Positions 3,401 through 60,274 of a stretch of 64,000 nucleotides of DNA are shown piece by piece. How positions within the stretch are numbered: position 1 is the stretch's first letter; each line of letters starts with the position of its first letter. The notes under the pieces were generated by a model. The model was given only the letters and a program-made list of their open reading frames with translations, was not told the origin of the DNA and did no database searches. Location: contig NZ_PKDG01000009.1 in the NCBI RefSeq assembly GCF_002863005.1, forward strand, positions 124,001-188,000, given 5' to 3'. Source of the stretch: Pseudoxanthomonas sp. GTDB taxonomy: Bacteria > Pseudomonadota > Gammaproteobacteria > Xanthomonadales > Xanthomonadaceae. The position numbers and the translations under genes were made by a program.

Positions 3401-3869
3401 GGCCGGCCTCGCGCTGCCGTTGGTTCAATTCCACGAGGGCGGCACGAAGCCGGCATCCGGCCATCCGTTCGGTCCCCATGTGCGTCCGCCGCTCGATCCT
3501 GGCCAGGCACGCACGGTGCTCCGGCACCTGCTCTGGCTGCGCGAACAGGGCCTGCGCGAACCGCTGCCGTTCGCGCCTTACAGCGGCTGGGAATTCTTCG
3601 CCGCCGCGCCCGACATGGAAGCAGGCCTGAAGGAAGCGGCGAAGAAATGGTACGGAAGCGAGCGCAGCTGGAGCGAAGGCAACGGCGATGCGCTGCGGCT
3701 CGCGCTGCGCGGCTGCGATCCTTTCACCGATGACGCAGCGCGGCTGCGGTTCGCGGATCTTTCGATGTCGATCTATCTCGCGGTCACGCAGGGCGAGGTC
3801 TACGCTGGCACCGATCCGGATGCGTTGCGCGCACTGGCCCCCGTCTTCGACGCGGAGGACGCCGGATGA
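495..3869 (+). CDS. recC: RecBCD exonuclease V subunit gamma (RecC)
   Basis: 1124-residue RecC, the Chi-recognition and scaffold subunit of the RecBCD helicase-nuclease that processes double-strand ends for recombination. The N-terminus (FRLYHSNALEVLAGLLAREL) is the usual RecC opening, and further motifs include VLAPDIDPYVPYLEAVFG and LGMNDGDYPRRDP, both typical of the inactivated helicase-like domains of RecC. The frame is open back to 390. ATG 495 was preferred because the family N-terminus follows directly; ATG 483 in the same frame is an alternative. The stop overlaps the recB start (ATGA), so recC, recB and recD form one translationally coupled operon. Length is close to E. coli RecC (1122). 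Confidence 0.95.
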   Translation: MTTDATPDFRLYHSNALEVLAGLLARELSTPAPGVPLLAPETVLIPQVAMRRWLQATLATAHGIAANLEFLTPGEFVARALDANVPGEGEDLDAATLHWRLYAALTDPVLLARPAMAQIAAYLADTASRRPDPLKPWALAGELAEVFEKYQAWRRDWLLRWESGADPDDPQAILWRHVAGGHDYRARRIQRYLDRFEGAGQPLPQGLPPRVFAFATLNVSPDVLRVLATQARVGTLHFYVPSPVKDYWGDLQRLRAGAEDDTTADARLLQAWGAAGRDFMAVIGSYELVHPTLDVRGHADPGAGGGKFHGSLLRRLQSDLFHRRAQPPDLLPALRTDDPSLQVHACHTRLRELQVLHDQLRALLEDDRFDPPLQPREIAVLAPDIDPYVPYLEAVFGAPGDGDRLPYALADTSPLAGEPLADVFVRLLGLPVSRFGTHEILDLLASAPIADAAGLDAPALERLHAWLQAAGARWGLDAKHRAAHGAPADDAYTWQFALDRLLLGHASGAQDDIAGVAPWPELEGSALDALDILVRLLRVLARHQKSLGEAITPAQWRERLLGLLAALLPREPALPARQRALDRLRMLIDDFAVQAEKAGYADTVPADVVRAHFATTLAEADTRAPLLTGGISFGRMVPMRLLPFRVICVLGMNDGDYPRRDPAAGLSKLTAELGTDKRRHGDRSLREDDRFLFLQLFAAAQDVFLLSYLGADPRDGGAREPSVLVSELIDAAARQHADPASVARAMVVHHPLQPFSPVAFGGDDDPRRFSYRRQWHPAAGRLAGRRSLLPRWFPGDAMPPPADAGSGLSLDQLRRFLTAPAEQFLHQRLGLRLEGIDEAGDDVEPLLLPGRGLARSDVQAAVFAGVLQGDDDATLHAALRARALLPSGPLGRRTLSTLRSEVTPYARAFADWTGGELPATQRIEVDIDGVALHGTLAGMYPHGLARIRIGAPGGSAAIRDGLDWLLASAAGLALPLVQFHEGGTKPASGHPFGPHVRPPLDPGQARTVLRHLLWLREQGLREPLPFAPYSGWEFFAAAPDMEAGLKEAAKKWYGSERSWSEGNGDALRLALRGCDPFTDDAARLRFADLSMSIYLAVTQGEVYAGTDPDALRALAPVFDAEDAG

Positions 3870-6800
3870 CCGTCGCGCACGATCCCTACCTCGCGCTGCC
3901 GCTCGATGGCGTGCAGTCCATCGAGGCGTCCGCCGGTACCGGCAAGACCTTCACCCTGGCCACGCTGGTCGTACGGCTGGTGGTCGAAGGCGGCTTGCGC
4001 ATCGGCGAAGTCCTGGCCGTCACCTTCACCGAGGCCGCCACCCAGGAGCTGCGCGCGCGCATCCGTGCCCGCCTGCTGCTGGCAGCATCGCTGCCCGCCG
4101 TCGCCGCCGCCGATGAAGCGCCGGAGGCGGCATTGACGCGTGCGCTCCTCGATGCGCATCTCGCGCGGAGTGGTGAACCTCCCGCCGCACTGCATCGGCG
4201 TCTGCGCGAAGCCGCCGACGGCATGGACCTGGCGGCGGTGTTCACCATCCACGGCTTCTGTGCACGGGTGTTGCGCGAACACGCCCTGGAAAGCGGGCAC
4301 GGTTTCGATGCGCCGCCGTTGCTCGCCAACGACGCAGCGCTGCGGCAGGAAATCGCCGCGGACCTGTGGCGCGCGCATGGCGCGGACGATGACGGTGCGG
4401 ATGATCTGCTTGCGCTGTGGAAGGGCGGCCCCGACGCCTTGGCGGCCGACCTGCCCGCGTTGCTGCGCGAACAGCGGTTGCAGCCGTACCCCGTCGATCC
4501 GCTGCCTGCCGACCCTGCAACGGCCTTGCGGGCGGCCGGCGAAGCGCTCATGGCCGCGTATCGCGCGCACGGGAGCGCGTTTCGTGACGCCCTGGTCGCC
4601 GCAGTGGAGGGAAAGGTGCTGCACGGCGGCAGCTACAGGGTCGAGTGGATCATCGGGCTGTTCGACGCGCTGGAGGCATGGGCGGCCGCGGACGATGCCG
4701 GCATGCCGTTCGCGCACGACAGGCTGCCGCAGTTGCGCCGTGAGGCGCTGCTGCTGAAAACCAGCAAGGCCGGCGCGGGCCGCACCCCGGAATCGCCGCT
4801 GACGCATGCCATCGATGCCTACCTGCAGGCGCAGGACCGCGTCGACGCCTATCGCGAAGCGCGCCGCGTCGCCCTGCTGCATCGCCTGCGCGACGATGCC
4901 CGGGCACGGCTGATGCTGCGCAAACAGCAGCTGCGTGTTCAGACCTACGACGACCTGATCGACGGCGTCGCGGATGCGCTCGAAACGCCACATGCGGACG
5001 CCCTCGTGCAGCGCCTGCGCGCCCAGTATCGCGTCGCGCTGGTCGATGAGTTCCAGGACACCGATCCACGCCAGTGGCGCATCTTCGACCACGTGTTCGG
5101 CAGCAGGAGTCCGAAGCCGGCGCTGTTCGTCATCGGCGATCCCAAGCAGGCGATCTACGGCTTCCGTGGCGGCGATGTGGAAACCTATCTCGCCGCTCAG
5201 GCCGATGCCGTCGCCGCACCACCGCTGTCGCACAACTTCCGCTCGCGGCCGTCGGTACTGCGTGCCATCGAAGCGTTGTACGCACAGGCCGGTGACGCCG
5301 CATTCGTCGATCCACGCATCCATTTCCATCCGGTCGCGCCCGGTGGCACACGTCACGATGACGACTTCCAGCGTCATGGCGCGGCCGCGCCCGCGCTGAC
5401 CGTATGGCGAGCGCCATCGCCGGCGCCCGGACCGGACGGCAAGGTCAAGCCCTGGGACGCAGGCACCTCGCGTGAACTGGCCATCGCTGCCTGCGTGGCT
5501 GCCATCCACCGCGTACTGACGGATGCGCGCGCCGGCAACGCGACGATAGGAGGCAAACCCGTTCAGCCCGGCGATATCGCCGTGCTGGTCCGCACGCACC
5601 GGGATGCCACCCGCATCCGTGCCGCGCTGGCCGAGGTCGGCATTCCCGCTGTTGCCGCCGGCAAGCTCAGCCTGTTCGCCGCGCCGGAAGCGCGCGAACT
5701 GCACGCGCTGCTGCGCACGTTGATGCACGGCGCGGACGACGGCCATCTGCGCGCCGCGCTGTCCACCGTCCTGCTGGGCGTGGATGCCGCGGGCATCGCC
5801 GCGCTCGAAACCGACGGCGATGCGATGCGCGGCTGGCAACAGCGCGCGCAGGACTGGCGCGAACGCCTGCATCGCGGTGGCCCGCTGGCGCTGGTCAACG
5901 ACCTGTGCGCCGAGCACGCCCCGCGCCTGCTCGGCCTGCTCGACGGCGAGCGCAGGCTCACCAACTACCTGCAGACGGCCGAGATGCTGCAGGAAGCCGA
6001 CGCGCGTACGCTCGGCCTGCCCGGCCTCGTCGACTGGCTGGCCGCTGCCATCGCCGATGCCGGCACCGCTGCCGATGACGACGCACAGCTGCTGCGGCTG
6101 GAATCCGATGCGCACCGCGTGCAGGTGGTGACGCTGCACAAGAGCAAGGGCCTGGAGTACCCGCTGGTGTTCCTGCCGTATGCGGGCATCGGCGGAAGGG
6201 CGCCCGATCCCGGCCAGCGCGTCGTCGTCACCGACGCGGACGGCCGCGTGCTGCACTGGAAGTTGCAGGAGGAGGTCTCCGGGTGGGGCGCGGCCAGAGC
6301 GCAATGGAGCGAGGCGCAGCGCGCCGAAGACGCGCGCCTGCTGTACGTCGGCCTGACCCGCGCCAGCCACGCGCTGTGGCTGGCGACGGGCGCCTTCTAC
6401 CAGCACGCGCAGTCGCCGCTATGGGCGATGGTGCGCGATGCCGACGCCCTGCTGGCGCAGGACCCGGGCATCCGCATCGATCCCGCCGCACCGCCCGCCG
6501 AACTGCCGTGGTTGCCGCACGTGGCGGAGGGCGCGGTGCCGCCCGCCCGCGTCGCCCGGCGTTCCATCGCGCCCGACTGGTGGGTCTACAGCTTCACCCA
6601 GCTTGCGCATGCCGATGCGGGCCACGCCGTCGACGCTGCCTCCACCGAGGCCGACGGCGCGGCCGCGGACGAACCGGTGCAGGCGCCCGATGACGCAGAC
6701 GCGTCCCCCGACATCACCGCAGACGCGTACGACCCGCGCTTCAGTGGCAGCCGTTTCGGCAACGTGCTGCATGCGGCGCTCGAAGACACCCGCTTCGGCG

Positions 6801-7483
6801 CATGGGCGCAGTGGCAGGCGGGGGATGCGGCGCCGGAAGGCGAACATGCCGCCCTGCTCGCCGCGCTGTGCAGGGAAGGCTACGCGCAGGACGACCTGGC
6901 CGATGGCGTCGCCCTGCTCACCTCGTTGGTCGGACGCACGCTGACCGTCGCGCTGCCCGAGGGTGGCGCATTGCATGCGCTGGGCGACGACGAGCGGCGT
7001 GCCGAAATCGAATTCCATTTCGCCCTTGCACCCACTGCCGTGCCGGCGTTGCTGGCGCTGCTGCACGAGCATGGCGTGGCGCGCGCGCGCCACGGGTTCG
7101 GCCTGCGCTCGCGGCTGGAAGGGTTGATGACCGGCAAGATCGACCTGACCTACGTGCGCGACGGGCGCTGGTACGTGCTCGACTACAAGTCCAACCGGCT
7201 GCCGCGCTACGACGCGCCCGCGCTGGCGACTGCGATGGCGCACAGCGAGTACGACCTGCAGGCCCTGGTCTACACCGTCGCGCTGCATCGCTGGCTGCGG
7301 TTCCGCCTGGGCGGCGGCTACGACTACGCGCGCGATTTCGGCGGCATCCGCTACGTGTTCTGCCGCGGACTCGATCCCGCGCGCGATGCGTCGCTCGGCG
7401 TGCATGCGCAGCGCTTCGCGCCGGAACTTGTGCACGCACTCGACGCCTTGTTCGCGGGCCACGGGCAGGAGGCGGCCGCATGA
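3866..7483 (+). CDS. recB: RecBCD exonuclease V subunit beta (RecB)
   Basis: 1205-residue RecB, the 3'-5' helicase and nuclease subunit. Superfamily 1 motifs are visible: Walker A EASAGTGKT at residues 20-28, DEFQDTDPRQW near 394, and the later helicase region VVTLHKSKGLEYPLVFLPY. The C-terminal RecB-family nuclease carries the D-Y-K catalytic signature in VLDYKSNRLP near residue 1105. It overlaps recC by 4 bases and recD by 4 bases. The length matches typical RecB (about 1180). A very long open frame exists on the opposite strand here but is a high-GC shadow. Confidence 0.97.
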   Translation: MTVAHDPYLALPLDGVQSIEASAGTGKTFTLATLVVRLVVEGGLRIGEVLAVTFTEAATQELRARIRARLLLAASLPAVAAADEAPEAALTRALLDAHLARSGEPPAALHRRLREAADGMDLAAVFTIHGFCARVLREHALESGHGFDAPPLLANDAALRQEIAADLWRAHGADDDGADDLLALWKGGPDALAADLPALLREQRLQPYPVDPLPADPATALRAAGEALMAAYRAHGSAFRDALVAAVEGKVLHGGSYRVEWIIGLFDALEAWAAADDAGMPFAHDRLPQLRREALLLKTSKAGAGRTPESPLTHAIDAYLQAQDRVDAYREARRVALLHRLRDDARARLMLRKQQLRVQTYDDLIDGVADALETPHADALVQRLRAQYRVALVDEFQDTDPRQWRIFDHVFGSRSPKPALFVIGDPKQAIYGFRGGDVETYLAAQADAVAAPPLSHNFRSRPSVLRAIEALYAQAGDAAFVDPRIHFHPVAPGGTRHDDDFQRHGAAAPALTVWRAPSPAPGPDGKVKPWDAGTSRELAIAACVAAIHRVLTDARAGNATIGGKPVQPGDIAVLVRTHRDATRIRAALAEVGIPAVAAGKLSLFAAPEARELHALLRTLMHGADDGHLRAALSTVLLGVDAAGIAALETDGDAMRGWQQRAQDWRERLHRGGPLALVNDLCAEHAPRLLGLLDGERRLTNYLQTAEMLQEADARTLGLPGLVDWLAAAIADAGTAADDDAQLLRLESDAHRVQVVTLHKSKGLEYPLVFLPYAGIGGRAPDPGQRVVVTDADGRVLHWKLQEEVSGWGAARAQWSEAQRAEDARLLYVGLTRASHALWLATGAFYQHAQSPLWAMVRDADALLAQDPGIRIDPAAPPAELPWLPHVAEGAVPPARVARRSIAPDWWVYSFTQLAHADAGHAVDAASTEADGAAADEPVQAPDDADASPDITADAYDPRFSGSRFGNVLHAALEDTRFGAWAQWQAGDAAPEGEHAALLAALCREGYAQDDLADGVALLTSLVGRTLTVALPEGGALHALGDDERRAEIEFHFALAPTAVPALLALLHEHGVARARHGFGLRSRLEGLMTGKIDLTYVRDGRWYVLDYKSNRLPRYDAPALATAMAHSEYDLQALVYTVALHRWLRFRLGGGYDYARDFGGIRYVFCRGLDPARDASLGVHAQRFAPELVHALDALFAGHGQEAAA

Positions 7484-9357
7484 GCCTGCTCGATACCCTG
7501 TTCCGCAACGGCCACCTGCGTACCCTGGACCACGCCCTCGCCCAGAGCCTGCGCCGGCTGGATGCGGCCACGCCCGACGACGTGCTCGCCGCCACCGCGC
7601 TGGCGTCGCTCGCCGTCGCCAAGGGCCATGCGGGTCTCTCGCTGCGCGAGCCGCAGGCACTGCTCGACGCCGATACCCCCATCGACTGGCCATCCGTCGA
7701 CGCGTGGCGTGCATGTCTCGCCGCGTCGCGCTGGGTGGCCACGCCGGACGATGCCGATGCGGTCGCCGACCCGCACGCGCCGCTGGTGCTGGAACACGAC
7801 CTCCTCTACCTGCGCCGTTATCGCGAGTACGAACGGGCACTCGCGGCCGGCCTGCAACGCCTCGCCACGCAACCGGTGCCGGCAACCGGCGTCGATGCGC
7901 TCGCGCCTTTGTTCGCGCAGCTCTTTCCGCCGGCCGCGCACGATGTCCACCAGGCGCGTGCCGCCGCGCTCGCACTGCGCCATGCCCTGCTGCTGGTCAC
8001 CGGTGGTCCCGGGACCGGCAAGACCACCACCACCGCGCGCCTGCTGGTGCTGCTGGCCGCACAGGCACGGTGCGCAGGCCGCGCCGCGCCACGCATCGCC
8101 CTGGCCGCGCCTACAGGTCGCGCCGCCGAGCGCATGGCCGAAAGCGTCCGCCATGCGGTGCAAGCCTTGGCGGCGCAGGGCGTGGACGCCGATCTGCTCG
8201 CGACGCTGCCCACCACGGGCACCACCCTGCACCGCTTGCTCGGCACGATTCCGGATTCGCCCCGCTTCCGCCATCACGCCGACAACCCGCTGCCGTTCGA
8301 CGTGGTGGTCGTCGACGAAGCCTCGATGATCGACCTGCCGCTGATGGCCAAGCTGGTGGACGCCGTCGCCGATGGCACGCGCCTGGTGCTGCTGGGCGAT
8401 CCGGACCAGTTGCCGTCGGTGGAAGCAGGCGATGTGCTCGCTGCCATCCTGAGCGCGGCAGGGGATGGCAACGACTTGGGCATGCAGGACGCCGGGGCGC
8501 TCCGCCCGCTGCTCGGCGATGTTCCGCCCGCTGATCACAAGGCAAGCGAGGATCATCTACAGGGCCGCTTCGCCGGCATCCGCGTGCACCTGCAGCGCGG
8601 CTGGCGCCAGAGCGAAGCCCTGCAGCTCGCGCCGCTGGCCGCCGCCGTGCGCGAAGGCGATGCCTCCACGACGCTCTCGCTTCTGCGCAGCGAAACGCTG
8701 GCCGGCGTGCAGTTCCACGAAGACCTGGCCGATCCGCTCGACATGCAGCGCGAACGCCTGCTGTCGCACTGGCGCGCGCTGGGCGAAGCCGCCACGCCCG
8801 CCGACGCGCTGGCGCTGTCCGCGCGCCTGCGCATCCTCACCGCCGTGCGTGAAGGCCCGCAGGGCGCGCGCACGTTGAACGCCCGCATCGAGCGCCTGCT
8901 GGTGGAAGGCGGCAGCGGCCTGCAGCGTGCCGGGCAGGGCCACTTTCATGGCCAGCTGGTCATCGTCACAGAGAACAGCTATCGCCACCGTCTGTTCAAC
9001 GGCGACATCGGGCTGTGTTTCCGCGATGCGCAAGGCGTATTGCTGGCCTGGTTCCCGGGCGACACACCCACGCAGCCGCGCGCGTTCCATCCCGCATCGC
9101 TGCCCGCGCACGAGTCCGCATTCGCCATGACCGTGCACAAGGCGCAGGGCAGCGAATTCGATGCGGTCTGGCTGCTGCTGCCCGCACGCGGCAACCGCGT
9201 GCTGTCGCGTGAACTCCTCTACACCGGCATCACCCGCGCCAGGCGTGAGCTGCACGTCGCCGGCAGCGAAGCGGTGATCCGCGACGCACTGTCGCGGCAT
9301 GCGAGCCGGTGGTCGGGGCTGGGGTGGCGGTTGGCGCTCCCACGCATCGCGTCGTAA
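7480..9357 (+). CDS. recD: RecBCD exonuclease V subunit alpha (RecD)
   Basis: 625-residue RecD, the 5'-3' helicase of RecBCD. The start ATG overlaps the recB stop (ATGA); the frame is open further upstream but only the part after 7480 looks like RecD (MSLLDTLFRNGHLRTLD). Walker A GGPGTGKTTTT lies near residue 172 and the DEAS-type Walker B (VVVDEASMIDLPLM) near 277, both as in RecD/TraA helicases. The C-terminal motif FAMTVHKAQGSEFDAVWL is the conserved helicase motif V/VI region. A stretch around residues 325-360 (from GDGNDLGMQDAGALRPL) is a family-variable insertion before the VHLQRGWRQS motif. Confidence 0.95.
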   Translation: MSLLDTLFRNGHLRTLDHALAQSLRRLDAATPDDVLAATALASLAVAKGHAGLSLREPQALLDADTPIDWPSVDAWRACLAASRWVATPDDADAVADPHAPLVLEHDLLYLRRYREYERALAAGLQRLATQPVPATGVDALAPLFAQLFPPAAHDVHQARAAALALRHALLLVTGGPGTGKTTTTARLLVLLAAQARCAGRAAPRIALAAPTGRAAERMAESVRHAVQALAAQGVDADLLATLPTTGTTLHRLLGTIPDSPRFRHHADNPLPFDVVVVDEASMIDLPLMAKLVDAVADGTRLVLLGDPDQLPSVEAGDVLAAILSAAGDGNDLGMQDAGALRPLLGDVPPADHKASEDHLQGRFAGIRVHLQRGWRQSEALQLAPLAAAVREGDASTTLSLLRSETLAGVQFHEDLADPLDMQRERLLSHWRALGEAATPADALALSARLRILTAVREGPQGARTLNARIERLLVEGGSGLQRAGQGHFHGQLVIVTENSYRHRLFNGDIGLCFRDAQGVLLAWFPGDTPTQPRAFHPASLPAHESAFAMTVHKAQGSEFDAVWLLLPARGNRVLSRELLYTGITRARRELHVAGSEAVIRDALSRHASRWSGLGWRLALPRIAS

Positions 9358-10169: not shown

Positions 10170-10265
10170 CACGCCGGCCCTGCAGGCTGGCGCGCACGCG
10201 GCGTTCGCCGTGGCGGCGGGCCCTGGAAGGAAAAGACGCTGCCTGCAACGCCGACGCATCGCACG

Positions 10266-10294
10266 GAGGTCATGCCGACCTCTAGAATCGCGGC
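10266..10294 (+). promoter_or_regulatory. clsA promoter with adjacent palindrome, probable leaderless start
   Basis: A -10 hexamer TAGAAT lies at 10283-10288, exactly 6 bases before the clsA ATG at 10295, so transcription would begin at or next to the start codon. Immediately upstream is a perfect inverted repeat GAGGTC-N5-GACCTC (10266-10271 and 10277-10282), placed where a regulator would block or contact polymerase. No convincing -35 is seen. The hexamer and dyad are seen directly; leaderless initiation and regulation are inferred. Confidence 0.5.
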
Positions 10295-11749
10295 ATGCCC
10301 GACGTCCTCCACGCCATCCGAGATGCCGCGTCCACCCTGCCCCACCTCGCCGGGTGGATCACGCTGGCCTGGCTGCTTTACCTGGTGCCGCTGTGTACCT
10401 GGATCATCCTGCAGAAACGCGAACCGGTGGCCACACTCAGTTGGCTGCTTTCCCTTGCGCTGCTGCCGTACGTGGGGTACTTGGTCTACTTCCTGTTGGG
10501 GCCGCAGCGCATCAAGCGGCATCAACTCCGGCGGACGCGCGCGCGCGAAGGCGTGGAGAGCTACGAGGTCTTCGCACCGGCTGACGGCAACAGCGCGGAA
10601 CTGCCCATGCTGGCCCAGAAGACGACGGGACTGCCGCCTTCCACGGCCACCTCGGTGCAGCAGCTCGTGGATGGGTGCGCCACGTACAAGGCGATCCTGG
10701 ATGCGATCGCCGCCGCGGAGAACCACATCCACCTGGAGTACTACATCTTCAACGGCGACCGTACCGGCCAGCGCATCCTCGAGGCGCTCGCGGTGAAGGC
10801 GCGCGAAGGCGTCAAGGTGCGCCTGCTGCTGGACGCCGTGGGCTCGAACCGACTCAAGACCCGGGCCTTGCGCGCGTTGATCGATGCCGGCGGCGAGCAC
10901 GCCTGGTTCCACCCTACCCGCTTCCGTCCCTTCACCCGTCCGTGGCTGAACCTGCGCACGCACCGCAAGATCGTGGTGGTCGACGGACGCATCGCGTTCA
11001 CGGGCGGCATCAACGTCACCGACGATGAGGACGAGTCCCTCTGCGACGATGCATTCCGCGACCTGCACCTGCGCCTCGAGGGCGAGATCGTGCGCAGCAT
11101 CCAGCAGGTGTTCGTCGAGGATTGGGTATATGCCACCGGCCAGCAGCGCAAGGACTTCCAGGGCACGCGGCTGTGGAGCGCCAGCGATGCCAACGTGCGG
11201 GGCGGGATTGCTGTACAGGCACTGGTGTCGGGGCCGGATTCCGCATGGGAGCCCATCCACCGCACCAAGGTCGCGGCGATCCATGAAGCGAGACAGCGCG
11301 TCTGGCTGGTCACGCCGTATTTCGTTCCCGGCGAAGCCGCGCGCATGGCGCTGACGTCCGCCGCGCTGGGCGGTCTGGACGTCCGCCTGGTGGTGCCCAA
11401 GACCAGCGATTCCCGGCTGGCGACGCTGGCCGCGCGGTCGTATTTCGACGAACTGCTCGCCGCCGGCGTGAAGGTCTACGAATACGGCCCACGCATGATG
11501 CACAGCAAGGCGCTTCTCTGCGACGACACGCTGGCCATCATCGGCAGCGCCAATTTCGACCACCGCAGCTTCCGGCTGAATTTCGAGATTTCCATGATGT
11601 TCCGCGACCGCGGCGTCGCCGGCACGCTGGGACAGTGGATGGAAGGCGAGATCGCCGCCAGTGAACCGGTACGCCTGCAGCGCGACCGCGCGCTCTGGCG
11701 CCATCGACTGCCCGAAGCACTGGCACGGCTGATGTCGCCCTTGCTGTGA
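10295..11749 (+). CDS. cls: cardiolipin synthase (phospholipase D superfamily)
   Basis: 484-residue cardiolipin synthase A-type enzyme, which condenses two phosphatidylglycerols to cardiolipin and glycerol at the inner membrane. Two N-terminal membrane segments (residues about 20-40 and 45-68) are followed by two HKD catalytic motifs: H-R-K in LRTHRKIVVVDGRIAFTGG near residue 223 and H-S-K in MMHSKALLCDDTLAIIGS near 403. The ASN-F-D-H-R-S signature follows the second motif. Length and double membrane anchor fit ClsA rather than the soluble ClsB. The ATG 10295 start fits both the family N-terminus and the upstream -10 element. Confidence 0.95.
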   Translation: MPDVLHAIRDAASTLPHLAGWITLAWLLYLVPLCTWIILQKREPVATLSWLLSLALLPYVGYLVYFLLGPQRIKRHQLRRTRAREGVESYEVFAPADGNSAELPMLAQKTTGLPPSTATSVQQLVDGCATYKAILDAIAAAENHIHLEYYIFNGDRTGQRILEALAVKAREGVKVRLLLDAVGSNRLKTRALRALIDAGGEHAWFHPTRFRPFTRPWLNLRTHRKIVVVDGRIAFTGGINVTDDEDESLCDDAFRDLHLRLEGEIVRSIQQVFVEDWVYATGQQRKDFQGTRLWSASDANVRGGIAVQALVSGPDSAWEPIHRTKVAAIHEARQRVWLVTPYFVPGEAARMALTSAALGGLDVRLVVPKTSDSRLATLAARSYFDELLAAGVKVYEYGPRMMHSKALLCDDTLAIIGSANFDHRSFRLNFEISMMFRDRGVAGTLGQWMEGEIAASEPVRLQRDRALWRHRLPEALARLMSPLL

Positions 11750-54392: not shown

Positions 54393-55271
54393 TCATCGCT
54401 CCACTGCGATGCCGGCCTGCTCCAGCAGCCAGCTGCGCACCTTGCGGAAACCGGGGTGCGCCAGGCTGCGTTCCGGATACACCAAGTAGTGGGCGAAGTC
54501 GGCCTGCAGCCGTTTCTTCGTCAGCGTCACCAGCCGCCCGGCCTTCACCAGCGGCTCGGCCAGCGTCCAGCGCGCCAGTGCCACGCCCACGCCTTGCGCC
54601 GCCGCCTGGTGCAGTGTCTCGGTGTCGTCGAACTGCGCGACATAGCGCGCCGGCGGCTGCCCGCCGAAATGCTCGAACCAGTCTTTCCATCGATTGGCCG
54701 GATCGCCCAGCAACGGCAACTTCGCCATCTGGTCCGGTGCCGGCCGGCCGTGCTGTTTCAGCAAGGCGGGGCTGGCGACCGGGGTGATCCATTCGTGGAA
54801 GAGAAACTCCGCGTGCACGTTCGGCCAGCGTCCACCGCCGAGCCGCAGCGCCAGGTCCACCGGCTCGCGCTCGAAATCCACCACGTGCGTGCTCGATTGC
54901 AGATTGAGGCCGAGCTCCGGATGCTGGGCCAGGAACGCCGGCAGGCGCGGCACCAGCCAGGCCGTGGCCATCGAAGGGATCAGGCTCAGCGTCACCGTGT
55001 GGTCGTTGCGCAACGTGGCGCGCCGCAGCGCATGCTCGATGGTGTCCAGCGGCCCGGAGATGGCATCGAAGAGGCGTTGGCCTTCCGGCGTCATCTCCAC
55101 GCCGCGAGGTCCGCGCGCCAGCAGCTTGTGGCCGAGCCGCTGCTCCAGCAGCCGCATGCGATGGCTCAACGCGCTGACGGTCAGGTGCATGGCCTCGGCG
55201 GCGCGGGTGAGGTTGCGCAGGCGCGCGGCCGTGACGAAGGCGTCCACCTGATCCAGCGGCAGTCGGCTCAT
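54393..55271 (-). CDS. LysR-family transcriptional regulator (GcvA-like)
   Basis: 292-residue LysR regulator. The winged-helix domain begins LPLDQVDAFVTAARLRNLTRAAEAMHLTVSALSHRMRLLEQRLG and is of the GcvA/AmpR subtype (MTPEGQRLFDAI). The C-terminal effector domain includes HAEFLFHEWITPVASPALL and GVGVALARWTLAEPLVKAGRLV. It is divergent from a 74-codon gene; the shared spacer holds two CTTG-N9-CAAG palindromes, one touching its own start codon, suggesting autoregulation. The effector is unknown. Confidence 0.93.
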   Translation of the reverse strand: MSRLPLDQVDAFVTAARLRNLTRAAEAMHLTVSALSHRMRLLEQRLGHKLLARGPRGVEMTPEGQRLFDAISGPLDTIEHALRRATLRNDHTVTLSLIPSMATAWLVPRLPAFLAQHPELGLNLQSSTHVVDFEREPVDLALRLGGGRWPNVHAEFLFHEWITPVASPALLKQHGRPAPDQMAKLPLLGDPANRWKDWFEHFGGQPPARYVAQFDDTETLHQAAAQGVGVALARWTLAEPLVKAGRLVTLTKKRLQADFAHYLVYPERSLAHPGFRKVRSWLLEQAGIAVER

Positions 55272-55352
55272 CTTGAATCCACCTCAAGGCTGGCTTGCGG
55301 AGCTTTCGCTTTTTCGGGGCCGATCATGCGCCTACCTTGGGAGTCCTTCAAG
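55272..55352. promoter_or_regulatory. Two LysR-type CTTG-N9-CAAG boxes
   Basis: CTTG-N9-CAAG occurs at 55272-55288 and again at 55336-55352, 64 bp apart centre to centre, in the 109-base divergent spacer. Each contains the T-N11-A motif of LysR binding sites (T55274/A55286 and T55338/A55350). The spacing is about six helical turns, suiting a regulator tetramer bound across the spacer. Confidence 0.65.
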
Positions 55353-55380
55353 CCGGACACCGGCGCCACGGAGCAGTCCC

Positions 55381-55605
55381 ATGCAAACCGGAATCAGGAA
55401 GCAGTGGTGGCAGCAGCTGGGTGGAATGAGCCAGGGCATGCTGTTCCTGCAGGGTCATGTCGCCCACACCGACAGCCCGCCGCACGAACCCGCCCACCGG
55501 CACCATGTCCACGATGCGCCAGGCCTGGCCCGGCGTCGCGAAGCGGTGCAGCGGCTCGGCGCACGGCGGCTGCGTGCGATGACCTCGTTGTCGCTGTTCC
55601 GCTGA
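55381..55605 (+). CDS. hypothetical small protein, 74 aa, divergent from LysR
   Basis: Short basic protein starting MQTGIRKQWWQQLGGMSQGMLFLQ, followed by a His-rich stretch (HVAHTDSPPHEPAHRHHVHD) and an Arg-rich end (RRREAVQRLGARRLRAM). No membrane segment or known domain is recognised. The upstream in-frame extension to 55273 overlaps the operator region and is not chosen. Its position opposite a LysR gene makes it the likely regulated target. The histidine cluster could bind metal, but that is speculative. Confidence 0.55.
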   Translation: MQTGIRKQWWQQLGGMSQGMLFLQGHVAHTDSPPHEPAHRHHVHDAPGLARRREAVQRLGARRLRAMTSLSLFR

Positions 55606-55689
55606 GCGCCCGCCAGCGTGGGAGCCCTTCACGTAGATCGAAGCTTCGCGCGCGGACAGCTGGCGAGTCTGTGTCCGCATGAAACACAA

Positions 55690-55710
55690 CGCCCGGCACA
55701 GGGCCGGGCG
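55690..55710 (-). terminator. Terminator after icd
   Basis: 8-bp stem CGCCCGGC/GCCGGGCG (55690-55697 and 55703-55710), 29 bases after the icd stop, followed on the minus strand by GTTGTGTTTC. Confidence 0.7.
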
Positions 55711-55738
55711 CTGGATGCGGCGGAGAAAGCGATAGACC

Positions 55739-58006
<2,268 letters not shown>

Positions 58007-58135
58007 TCAGCGCGCCATTGTCGCGTGTCGCCGCACGCAGGGCAAAACGAGGGGGTATGGTAACCTGCCAGTACCACGTCGGGCGTACCAGAAGGCGGAC
58101 TTGGAGCATCAGTGTCCGCGGCATCCGCATAGAAG

Positions 58136-58163
58136 AACAGGCGTGGAGACATCCACGCCTGTT
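58136..58163 (-). terminator. Terminator after the double-glycine peptide gene
   Basis: Perfect 12-bp stem AACAGGCGTGGA/TCCACGCCTGTT (58136-58147 and 58152-58163) with loop GACA, followed on the minus strand by CTTCTATG. It ends the peptide gene, 29 bases after its stop. The core GCGTGGA-N4-TCCACGC is shared with the hairpin at 58447-58470. Confidence 0.8.
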
Positions 58164-58191
58164 CATGCATCGGATGAGGCAGCAGTTCTGC

Positions 58192-58356
58192 TTATTTCAG
58201 ACAGATGCCGGTCGTGATGCAGACCCATACCTTCAGAGCCCCGTTGCTTACGGGACTTACGAGCTCTTCAGTCGAATCTACTGTAGCGGTGACGTCCGAA
58301 AAGTCTGCTGCACCACCGGAAATCAGCGCCAATTCGGATTCATTCAATACTTTCAT
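58192..58356 (-). CDS. bacteriocin-like peptide precursor with double-glycine leader
   Basis: 54-codon gene too short for a standard ORF list. The product starts [15 protein letters not shown], a textbook double-glycine leader (hydrophobic residues at -4, -7 and -12, Glu at -8, GG at -2/-1). The predicted mature part is 39 residues, begins [18 protein letters not shown], and ends [12 protein letters not shown] with two cysteines six apart, suitable for a disulfide or thioether. ATG 58356 has AAAGGA 6 bases upstream. Its base composition is near 50% GC, well below the neighbours. No dedicated C39-peptidase transporter or immunity gene is adjacent, so its role (bacteriocin, signal or orphan) is inferred from the leader only. 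Confidence 0.8.
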
Positions 58357-58446
58357 CGTCATTCCTTTGGTTAAGTCCCTCAGTGGGACGAATCAGCATC
58401 GCTGGCATCATCGCGCTTGGCAACTAACATTAGTGACAAAAAAAAG

Positions 58447-58470
58447 CGGGCGTGGATTCCTCCACGCCCG
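58447..58470 (-). terminator. Strong terminator after the lipoprotein gene
   Basis: 10-bp stem CGGGCGTGGA/TCCACGCCCG (58447-58456 and 58461-58470) with a 4-base loop, then CT8 on the minus strand (T run 58445-58438). It ends the LysM-lipoprotein operon and insulates the peptide gene downstream. Confidence 0.93.
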
Positions 58471-58511: not shown

Positions 58512-58991
58512 TTACTTGACTTCGAACTCTGTCACGCCGGCCGACGTACCGTTGAGCGTGGCTTCGAACTTGTACTTGCCAGCCGGCAGTCCATCAGGCT
58601 TGGAGATGCTGAAGGTCGCCACGCCGGGGCCAGTGGTGTTGAGGGTCTTGGTTTCCTCGCTGACCGTCTGGCCATCCTGAAAGGTCCACTTGGACGCCAG
58701 CATCGCGCCATTGGCGGCACCATCGGTCGCCACGGATGCATAGATGGTGTCCTTCGGTGCAAACGTGGTCGCAGCGGTTGTTACTTTCTGTTCGGCGTCG
58801 ACGGCATTACCCAGCGTCACGCCCGTCACCGACACGACCGCAGGCGCCGGCTCCATCGGCGCGGGAGCCGGGGCCGGCTCCACCACGGCAGGAGGCGCGG
58901 CGACTGGCTCTTCCTTCTTTTTGCAGCCCACCAGGGCTACGGTGCCGATCATGGCGGCGGCGAGGGCATAGGCGGTGCGATTCTGCTTCAT
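58512..58991 (-). CDS. proline-rich lipoprotein, 159 aa
   Basis: Signal peptide with lipobox VALVGC (Cys near residue 23), then KKKEEP and an Ala/Pro spacer, then a beta-rich domain of about 105 residues starting VTGVTLGNAVDAEQ and ending FEATLNGTSAGVTEFEVK, which reads like a small Ig-like or stress-type fold. A function is not recognised. It follows the LysM gene by 35 bases on the same strand, suggesting an envelope unit. It is weakly GC-depressed compared with neighbours. Confidence 0.82.
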   Translation of the reverse strand: MKQNRTAYALAAAMIGTVALVGCKKKEEPVAAPPAVVEPAPAPAPMEPAPAVVSVTGVTLGNAVDAEQKVTTAATTFAPKDTIYASVATDGAANGAMLASKWTFQDGQTVSEETKTLNTTGPGVATFSISKPDGLPAGKYKFEATLNGTSAGVTEFEVK

Positions 58992-59026
58992 GGATTCGGT
59001 TCCTTTTGAATGGAGATGTGGAGCGC

Positions 59027-59347
59027 TCAAGCGTCGCTCGGCTTGGGCGGAAGCTTGATGACCTGGCCTGGAAAGATGCGATCGGGATCGTCGATGACGT
59101 CGCGATTGGCTTCGAAGATCTGCTTCCAGGCATTGGCGCTGCCAAGATGTTCCTTCGCAATCTTGGACAGCGTATCGCCCTTCTCCACCGTGTAAGCGAT
59201 CTCGGTGGCAGGCGTCACGTCTTCCACCTGACCAGATGCCGCGAATCCTTCCTTGACGTTTGAAAAGTCAGGCGCCTGCTTCACCTCACCCGAGGTAGCG
59301 AAACCTTCTTTCACGTTGGAGAAGTCGGCTTTCTTCTCTGTGCTCAT
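59027..59347 (-). CDS. LysM domain protein with duplicated N-terminal motif
   Basis: 106-residue protein with a C-terminal LysM domain (YTVEKGDTLSKIAKEHLGSANAWKQIFEANRDVIDDPDRIFPGQVIKLP) that binds peptidoglycan; the layout resembles YgaU-type proteins but has no BON domain. The N-terminal part repeats ADFSNVKEGFATSGEV and PDFSNVKEGFAASGQV. No signal peptide is seen, so it may be cytosolic or exported in an unusual way. ATG 59347 follows AAGGGTGG; the GTG at 59356 is an alternative. The lipoprotein gene follows 35 bases later. Confidence 0.87.
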   Translation of the reverse strand: MSTEKKADFSNVKEGFATSGEVKQAPDFSNVKEGFAASGQVEDVTPATEIAYTVEKGDTLSKIAKEHLGSANAWKQIFEANRDVIDDPDRIFPGQVIKLPPKPSDA

Positions 59348-59455
59348 TGCAACCACCCTTCCTGGCGGGCTGTGGGATGAGCAGAGCGTTGCACGTGCCT
59401 TGTTAAGAATCCATAGCGCGTGCGTGAAATCGCTTCTATTGTTAGCTGAGTGACG

Positions 59456-60274
59456 TTACTGCCGTTGATCGCGCTTCATGAGCGGGACATTCATGTCGGC
59501 CGTGGCGCGCCACGGATTGATGTCCAGGCCGCCGCGCCGGGTATAGCGCGCTTCCACCGACAACGACGTCGGCCGGCAATGGGCCAGCATATCGTGAAAA
59601 ATCCGTTCGACGCACTGCTCATGGAACTCCGCGTGGTCGCGGAAGCTCACCAGGTAGCGCAGCAGTTCGATCCGGTCGATGCGCGGGCCGGCATAGCGGA
59701 TCACGACCGTCGCCCAGTCGGGCTGGCCGGTGACGGGACAATTCGACTTCAGCAGTTCCGACGAAAGGAGTTCCTCGACCTCGGCTTCCGGATCGGCGGC
59801 AAGGAATTCGGCGCGCGGCGGTCCGTAATGGTCGATCTCCACGTCCAGCCCGTCGAGCGATTCGCCCTCGGGCATCTCGGCCATCGGCGGCAGGCCGAAC
59901 ACGACCTGCACGTCCGCGCCCGCGCGTGCAGACAGGTCGGTTGCAATGCGCTCGAGCACCGCAGCATCGCTGTTGAAGCGCGTGCTGTTGAGCGAGTTGA
60001 GATAGAGCTTGAGCGATTTGGATTCGATCAGGCACGGCGACGTGCACGGTACGGTCAGCGTGGCGGTCGCCACGCGCGGTTTGCCCCGGGCATCCAGCCA
60101 GCTCAACTCGTACGCATGCCAGCGATCGTGGCCGACGAACGGCAAGGTATCGGCGGCGATGCCGATCTCGTCGCGCGCGCCCTGGCGCGGGATCGGGAAG
60201 AGGAGGGTAGGGTCGTACTGCGCGGGATACGCGACCTCGCGACCCAGCGAGGAATTCTGGGGGGTGTTGTTCAT
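59456..60274 (-). CDS. queF: NADPH-dependent 7-cyano-7-deazaguanine reductase (QueF)
   Basis: 272-residue two-module QueF, which reduces preQ0 to preQ1 in queuosine biosynthesis. The motifs [13 protein letters not shown] and [16 protein letters not shown] (with the active-site cysteine) and the closing [16 protein letters not shown] are diagnostic. It has a -10 hexamer 7 bases before the ATG (60274). The frame is open upstream but that part is antisense to the chagasin gene. Confidence 0.97.

Follow-up and report, generated by a model that had tools for sequence, protein, structure and literature searches.

Several described systems approach the locus analyzed here. Polymorphic toxins of the CDI/Rhs type are large proteins with an adjacent immunity gene, when class II microcins and other bacteriocins with a double-glycine (GG) leader are made as short precursors. 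For such leaders, the consensus L-12, E-8, L-7, G-2, G-1 is stated for Gram-positive substrates in PMC6959990. Another related case is that of the Naps of Neisseria, which PMC11798529 describes as cationic and as promoting lysis of the producer. Here, we analyzed a GG-leader peptide gene in a 64,000-nt stretch of DNA (the window) from Pseudoxanthomonas sp. (GCF_002863005.1, NZ_PKDG01000009.1, positions 124,001–188,000; genome labeled G000).

The peptide gene and its surroundings

The peptide gene sits between a small lipoprotein gene and the gene of monomeric isocitrate dehydrogenase (table 1). A previous sequence-only reading of this DNA had delineated the frame, its leader and its C-terminus, all of which were recovered as described, on the minus strand, and had pointed out a ribosome-binding site, which corresponds to AAAGGA six bases before the start. 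A second in-frame ATG lies two codons upstream (58362), but the start at MKVL is favored by the spacing of AAAGGA and by homologs beginning with MK or MR. The precursor then reads, in order, as the leader, one alanine, a 13-residue block and a tail. Overall, the 54-codon frame is a real gene.

Table 1. Features of the peptide locus, in window positions
Feature	Position	Strand	Basis
GG-leader peptide gene, 54 codons plus stop	58192..58356	−	Homologs, TIGR01847, selection
Double-glycine leader, residues 1–15	58312..58356	−	TIGR01847 above cut-off; consensus positions
Constant block, residues 17–29 (13 residues)	58270..58308	−	(Nearly) invariant in 48 aligned peptides; translation checked
Variable tail, residues 34–54, ending CITTGICLK	58195..58257	−	End of DNA homology with G019, G021 and G010
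Ribosome-binding region AAAGGA and upstream in-frame ATG	58357..58368	−	By eye
13-bp hairpin 3′ of the peptide gene, probable terminator with weak U-tract	58135..58164	−	Fold z-score −4.65
Terminator of the upstream lipoprotein gene	58447..58470	−	Consensus scan
Small lipoprotein gene, no function assigned	58512..58991	−	Neighbor of the peptide gene
LysM protein gene, two N-terminal variant block repeats	59027..59347	−	LysM 46.2 bits; repeats translated
Variant block repeats of the LysM protein	59282..59329 and 59225..59272	−	Translation

The terminator previously attributed to the gene holds in part: the 3′ hairpin is strong, but its U-tract is weak and a consensus terminator scan around the gene lists only the upstream lipoprotein terminator. 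With this terminator upstream and the hairpin downstream, the gene appears to stand alone, and no sigma-70-like consensus promoter was found for it. Likewise, the gene does have the reported GC of about one half (0.50, GC3 0.55) next to 200-base windows at 0.635–0.705 (55000–57999), but the LysM side is also low (0.525–0.60 in windows 58900–59599), so that low GC is not peculiar to the peptide gene. In agreement with the sequence-only reading, family-model searches recognized no exporter, modification enzyme or immunity gene among the listed neighbors. The neighbors considered for immunity were the lipoprotein, the isocitrate dehydrogenase and a 64-aa frame matching no family, in a kind of search that small unfamiliar immunity genes could escape. 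The 64-aa frame, located after the peptide gene on the minus strand, was rejected as an immunity gene on account of this lack of family match and of its overlap with the hairpin.

A leader, a constant block and a variable tail

Although an initial search gave only the window's own protein plus one other, close peptides exist within the genus in G010, G021 and, as a tandem pair, G019, along with a weak match in G005 (C2:737822, E 0.29). Among the matches listed from 395 genomes of the bacterial family, peptides with leader and motif are found in at least six genomes and at least seven genes; these six comprise the four genus carriers (G000, G010, G019 and G021) and two from another genus, with peptides that exactly match proteins labeled Stenotrophomonas. 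The distribution within the genus is patchy, with at least 4 of 38 genomes carrying the peptide among the matches listed. On a larger scale, a profile search among some 5.8 billion proteins gave 132 candidates and returned 98 of them; 97 of these (P0001 being the window's own) were sorted together with five genomic peptides, the window's included. The resulting 102 sequences divide into 52 GG peptides (with near-duplicates, and with P0058 and P0071 having the same core), 48 LysM-like proteins and 2 sequences outside both rules (one more LysM protein and P0098). The peptide formerly presented as a possible orphan is instead one of 52 such GG peptides. The papers listed by the literature searches name no such block-bearing family, and its motif strings occur in none of the papers searched.

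The architecture common to these peptides consists of a leader, a constant block and a variable tail. After the GG, the 48 aligned peptides have in common the block [A]DFSxVTxxV[D/T]ST, with exceptions such as P0088 and P0019. The tails take 45 distinct forms, 32 of which end in R and 22 in FR, and the mean net charge is −2.2 in the block part and +1.2 in the tail. The conserved leader with a variable core that the sequence-only reading had proposed to look for among homologs is therefore present, with the nuance that the mature part is variable in its tail alone, since the core also holds the 13 constant residues.

The nature of the leader itself was borne out. The window peptide scores 17.3 bits against the NCBIfam model TIGR01847 (bacteriocin_sig; cut-off 15.7), and its leader has L-12, E-8, L-7, I-4, G-2 and G-1, that is, the whole consensus given in PMC6959990 for Gram-positive substrates, plus I at −4. 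Positions L-12, E-8, G-2 and G-1 are kept in all seven genomic leaders of the family, position −7 being L or V. With 6 of 48 aligned members matching at E 1 or better, TIGR01847 is not a sensitive test for this peptide family.

Peptidase_C39 has two matches in the window's genome, on contigs C32 and C24. The protein of contig C32 (723 aa) combines C39, ABC-membrane and ABC domains and has a 421-aa HlyD protein nearby; the suggestion of a distant C39 transporter thus finds its counterpart, even if the peptide that it was invoked to serve is not isolated. Two small leader-bearing frames, one ending in GG and one in GA, lie between the exporter and HlyD genes of this contig (L023, frames 10176–10388 and 10475–10633, minus strand, beside the exporter), and one of them weakly matches MccV (E 0.079). 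The C39 protein of contig C24 was discarded as an exporter, its frame having no ABC part. It is a stand-alone C39 peptidase encoded alongside one outer-membrane-like and one glycine-rich repeat protein (L024, G000:C24:36000–48000, 3837–8952, minus strand), in a locus that, by eye, we take to resemble a Fap-type functional amyloid locus. At the scale of the genus, C39 matches above 100 bits, a threshold for exporter-type proteins that was picked after the scores were known, occur in 14 of 38 genomes, one of which (the noncarrier G033) has just a 173-aa frame. They are found in all 4 peptide carriers versus 10 of the 34 other genomes (p 0.014 with this post hoc threshold and with kinship ignored; p 0.018 when one further exporter-like genome is counted). 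We infer that the peptide is exported by a C39 ABC exporter after cleavage at the GG.

The constant part of the peptide is under purifying selection. Over the first 33 codons, the comparison with the closest homolog (G019a) gives a dN of 0.10 for a dS of 1.53, such close pairs being the only informative ones for dN/dS because many dS values are saturated or undefined. Over the same codons in seven genes, differences summed over pairs amount to 185, 166 and 427 at codon positions 1, 2 and 3. An absence of the frame from relatives and a lack of codon bias had been named as what would speak against a peptide gene; homologs do exist, and the excess at third positions is clear.

The boundary between constant and variable parts is also visible in the DNA. 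Between G000 and G019, identity is 82.6% from the end of the lipoprotein gene to codon 33, four residues past the block; the tail is then unalignable, and homology returns at 97.5% before the isocitrate dehydrogenase gene. The break falls at the same place against G019, G021 and G010, at positions 342–343 of the compared stretch (window positions 58258–58259). As for the locus as a whole, each of the 19 LysM loci examined, from the 38 genomes of the genus, has the order QueF, LysM, lipoprotein. In 11 of the 19, isocitrate dehydrogenase comes next in the stretch analyzed; the other 8, which include the carrier G010, lack it there. The gap between the lipoprotein and isocitrate dehydrogenase genes measures 243–298 bases in 8 noncarriers, versus 544 (G000), 585 (G021) and 871 (G019) in carriers, where it houses the peptide genes.

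The LysM and lipoprotein genes of this locus (window positions 58512–59347; L003, L004) were probably exchanged between species as one block, judging from their alleles: LysM and lipoprotein are 94% and 97% identical between G000 and G019, and 57–70% and 48–58% identical between these two and 16 other genomes, when the flanking genes of the pair show no more than the usual identity (QueF 88%, 12 genomes, partial; isocitrate dehydrogenase 94%, 11 genomes, partial). Such an exchange is not a rule, as the carriers G021 and G010 have ordinary alleles.

The block in LysM and phage proteins

Beyond the peptides, the block recurs in the LysM protein encoded two genes away and in phage proteins, which the sequence-only reading had not seen. 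The LysM proteins examined have two N-terminal copies of the motif. Those of G000 and G019 are a divergent variant, when the peptides of the same genomes keep the canonical block; by eye, the window peptide thus does not track its own LysM protein, and the block form of one peptide, P0088, resembles the LysM variant. The LysM repeats also give a weak match to the Pfam tubulin-binding (tau) repeat PF00418 (P0055 residues 4–19 and many LysM matches; 25.8 bits, cut-off 27), probably a spurious cross-match.

In viruses, a DNA pattern for the motif yielded 40 matches in 39 stretches, a count with no chance expectation attached. As we read them, large frames with a common downstream region account for 29, in which the motif is placed toward the N-end; endolysins of about 200 aa have it at the C-end in 3 cases, a single inovirus coat-like frame of 73 aa accounts for 4, and other frames for the last 4. 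We read the large frames as ejection-protein-like; PHROGs searches on three of them gave one family of unknown function, one weak endolysin match and, for the third, no match, querying the phage collection with two phage-type proteins by tblastn gave none either, and similar large frames exist in bacterial genomes G011, G012 and G385. The motif-bearing endolysins match phrog_90 (the second-best family for L115). At L115, near tail genes, both a large protein and an endolysin bear the motif, and the alignments of the 30 listed relatives of this 188-residue endolysin in the phage collection end at residue 161 or 170, so that the motif is an added C-terminal piece. The inovirus coat-like precursor (L095 7105–7323, L097, L104 and L109) has DFTGVTGAVDST behind a signal-like stretch and, as do many peptide tails, terminates in FR, both of which may be fortuitous.

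A second, longer family of GG peptides (P0098–P0100) has the motif at its C-end, and its sole other relative found, P0101 (61% identity over 79%), does not have it. From its presence at the N-end of LysM proteins and at the C-end of endolysins and of P0098–P0100, and from its absence in the sister P0101, the motif appears to be portable. Its range is narrow: the profile matched 4 of 369 genomes in a class-wide sample, all from the same bacterial family (whose share of the sample is not given), which disfavors a chance likeness, and 138 of 395 genomes within that family at E 1e-4, many members of the family thus being without a match as well. In AlphaFold2 models, the LysM domain of a relative is folded, with a mean pLDDT of 45–50 over residues 1–40, which hold the repeats, and the window peptide has a low-confidence helix in its tail (pLDDT 70.9, pTM 0.23). 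No docking is visible in either model, and the low confidence of the repeats makes the block look like a short linear motif.

Possible functions and related systems

On this basis, we propose, with the balance of belief standing about level, that the gene encodes a modular, microcin-like exported peptide made of a leader, a docking motif and a swappable tail, and used in competition between close relatives. The leader would be recognized and cut after the GG, and the C39 ABC exporter of contig C32 would carry the remainder out. The N-terminal part of the mature peptide, the constant acidic block ADFSxVTxxVxST, would dock to a partner present in the bacterial family, a putative partner that phages and the LysM protein may use as well, and the swappable tail, basic on average and most often ending in R, would do the work. 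Microcin-like competition is favored as the likeliest use by the variability of the tails, the patchy distribution of the genes and the apparent exchange of parts between species, and since no immunity gene was recognized, a signal or a self-acting peptide has to be weighed seriously against it.

The first of these, which we deem unlikely, is a strain-type signal, or pheromone, in which leader and block would ensure export and presentation, and a receptor encoded elsewhere would read the tail, whose C-terminal arginine is recurrent. A constant N-part with a variable tail, C-ends that recur to the point that nearly half of the distinct tails end in FR, and the missing immunity gene would all suit such a signal, but no receptor or regulator gene was recognized beside the peptide gene, whether in the window or, on inspection by eye, in the other loci, and a simple pheromone would not be expected to keep a constant acidic block once mature. 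Slightly more doubtful is a self-acting envelope peptide, whose partners or targets would be the producer's own LysM protein and cell wall, for example in lysis. The presence of the block in the LysM protein of the same locus and in phage endolysins points in this direction, as do the apparent exchange of the LysM–lipoprotein block together with the constant part of the peptide (G000 and G019) and the precedent of Nap peptides, which according to PMC11798529 are bacteriocin-like but have no detectable antimicrobial activity. However, in Stenotrophomonas-type genomes (L034 and L035), no LysM gene was detected within the 3 kb that surround the peptide gene, and in the window the LysM repeats are variant when the peptide block is canonical. 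We regard as quite improbable a RiPP modified by enzymes encoded elsewhere: the tail does contain Cys, Ser and Thr, and lantibiotic-type models give scattered weak matches (best E about 0.002), but each concerns 2–3 of 48 members, the tails have no modifiable core in common, and the neighbors of the peptide gene include no recognized modification enzyme, the presence of which in the cluster marks RiPPs. Finally, a chance open frame or decaying gene, for which the absence from most relatives examined and the lack of a consensus promoter could be invoked, is hardly credible given homologs that keep leader and block, the low dN/dS, the third-position excess and the ribosome-binding site.

In this peptide family, the export leader, the constant motif and the replaceable tail form clearly distinct parts. 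A bolder reading, which we hold to be speculative, is that ADFSxVTxxVDST is a Lysobacteraceae-specific docking tag of the host LysM protein, of phage virion-type and lysis proteins and of two unrelated classes of exported GG peptides. If so, the peptides could compete for a shared envelope partner, thereby blocking or mimicking phage entry or lysis, or, alternatively, the tails could be delivered through that partner. The motif is also of interest in itself: it is common to host proteins, phage proteins and exported peptides within a single bacterial family, and its putative shared partner could reveal how the phages and peptides of this family get to, or open, their cells.

With regard to known systems, the window LysM protein is akin to YgaU/Kbp-type proteins, matching NCBIfam PRK11198 over its LysM part (79.6 bits), but it stays under the cut-off of 134 and has two block repeats at its N-end, where the E. 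coli YgaU/Kbp-type protein has a BON domain. The peptide family recalls polymorphic toxins by its constant N-part, replaced C-part and sharp homology break, although the peptide has 54 codons and no adjacent immunity gene was recognized. According to PMC11798529, the Neisseria Naps are likewise bacteriocin-like peptides of a Gram-negative bacterium, but ones described as cationic and as promoting lysis of the producer. Class II microcins and GG-leader bacteriocins (TIGR01847; MccV, PF17508; Bacteriocin_IIc, PF10439) differ from the present case in that the window's exporter is nonadjacent, the adjacent immunity gene of class II microcins was not recognized among the listed neighbors, the tails are very short and the constant block after the GG also occurs in LysM and phage proteins; the Bacteriocin_IIc match of the window peptide is below the cut-off. 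They resemble it in the short precursor with its GG leader, in the C39 exporter and HlyD protein of the window's genome, and in the MccV model, with which 8 of 48 members reach E 0.1 or better (down to 0.00052).
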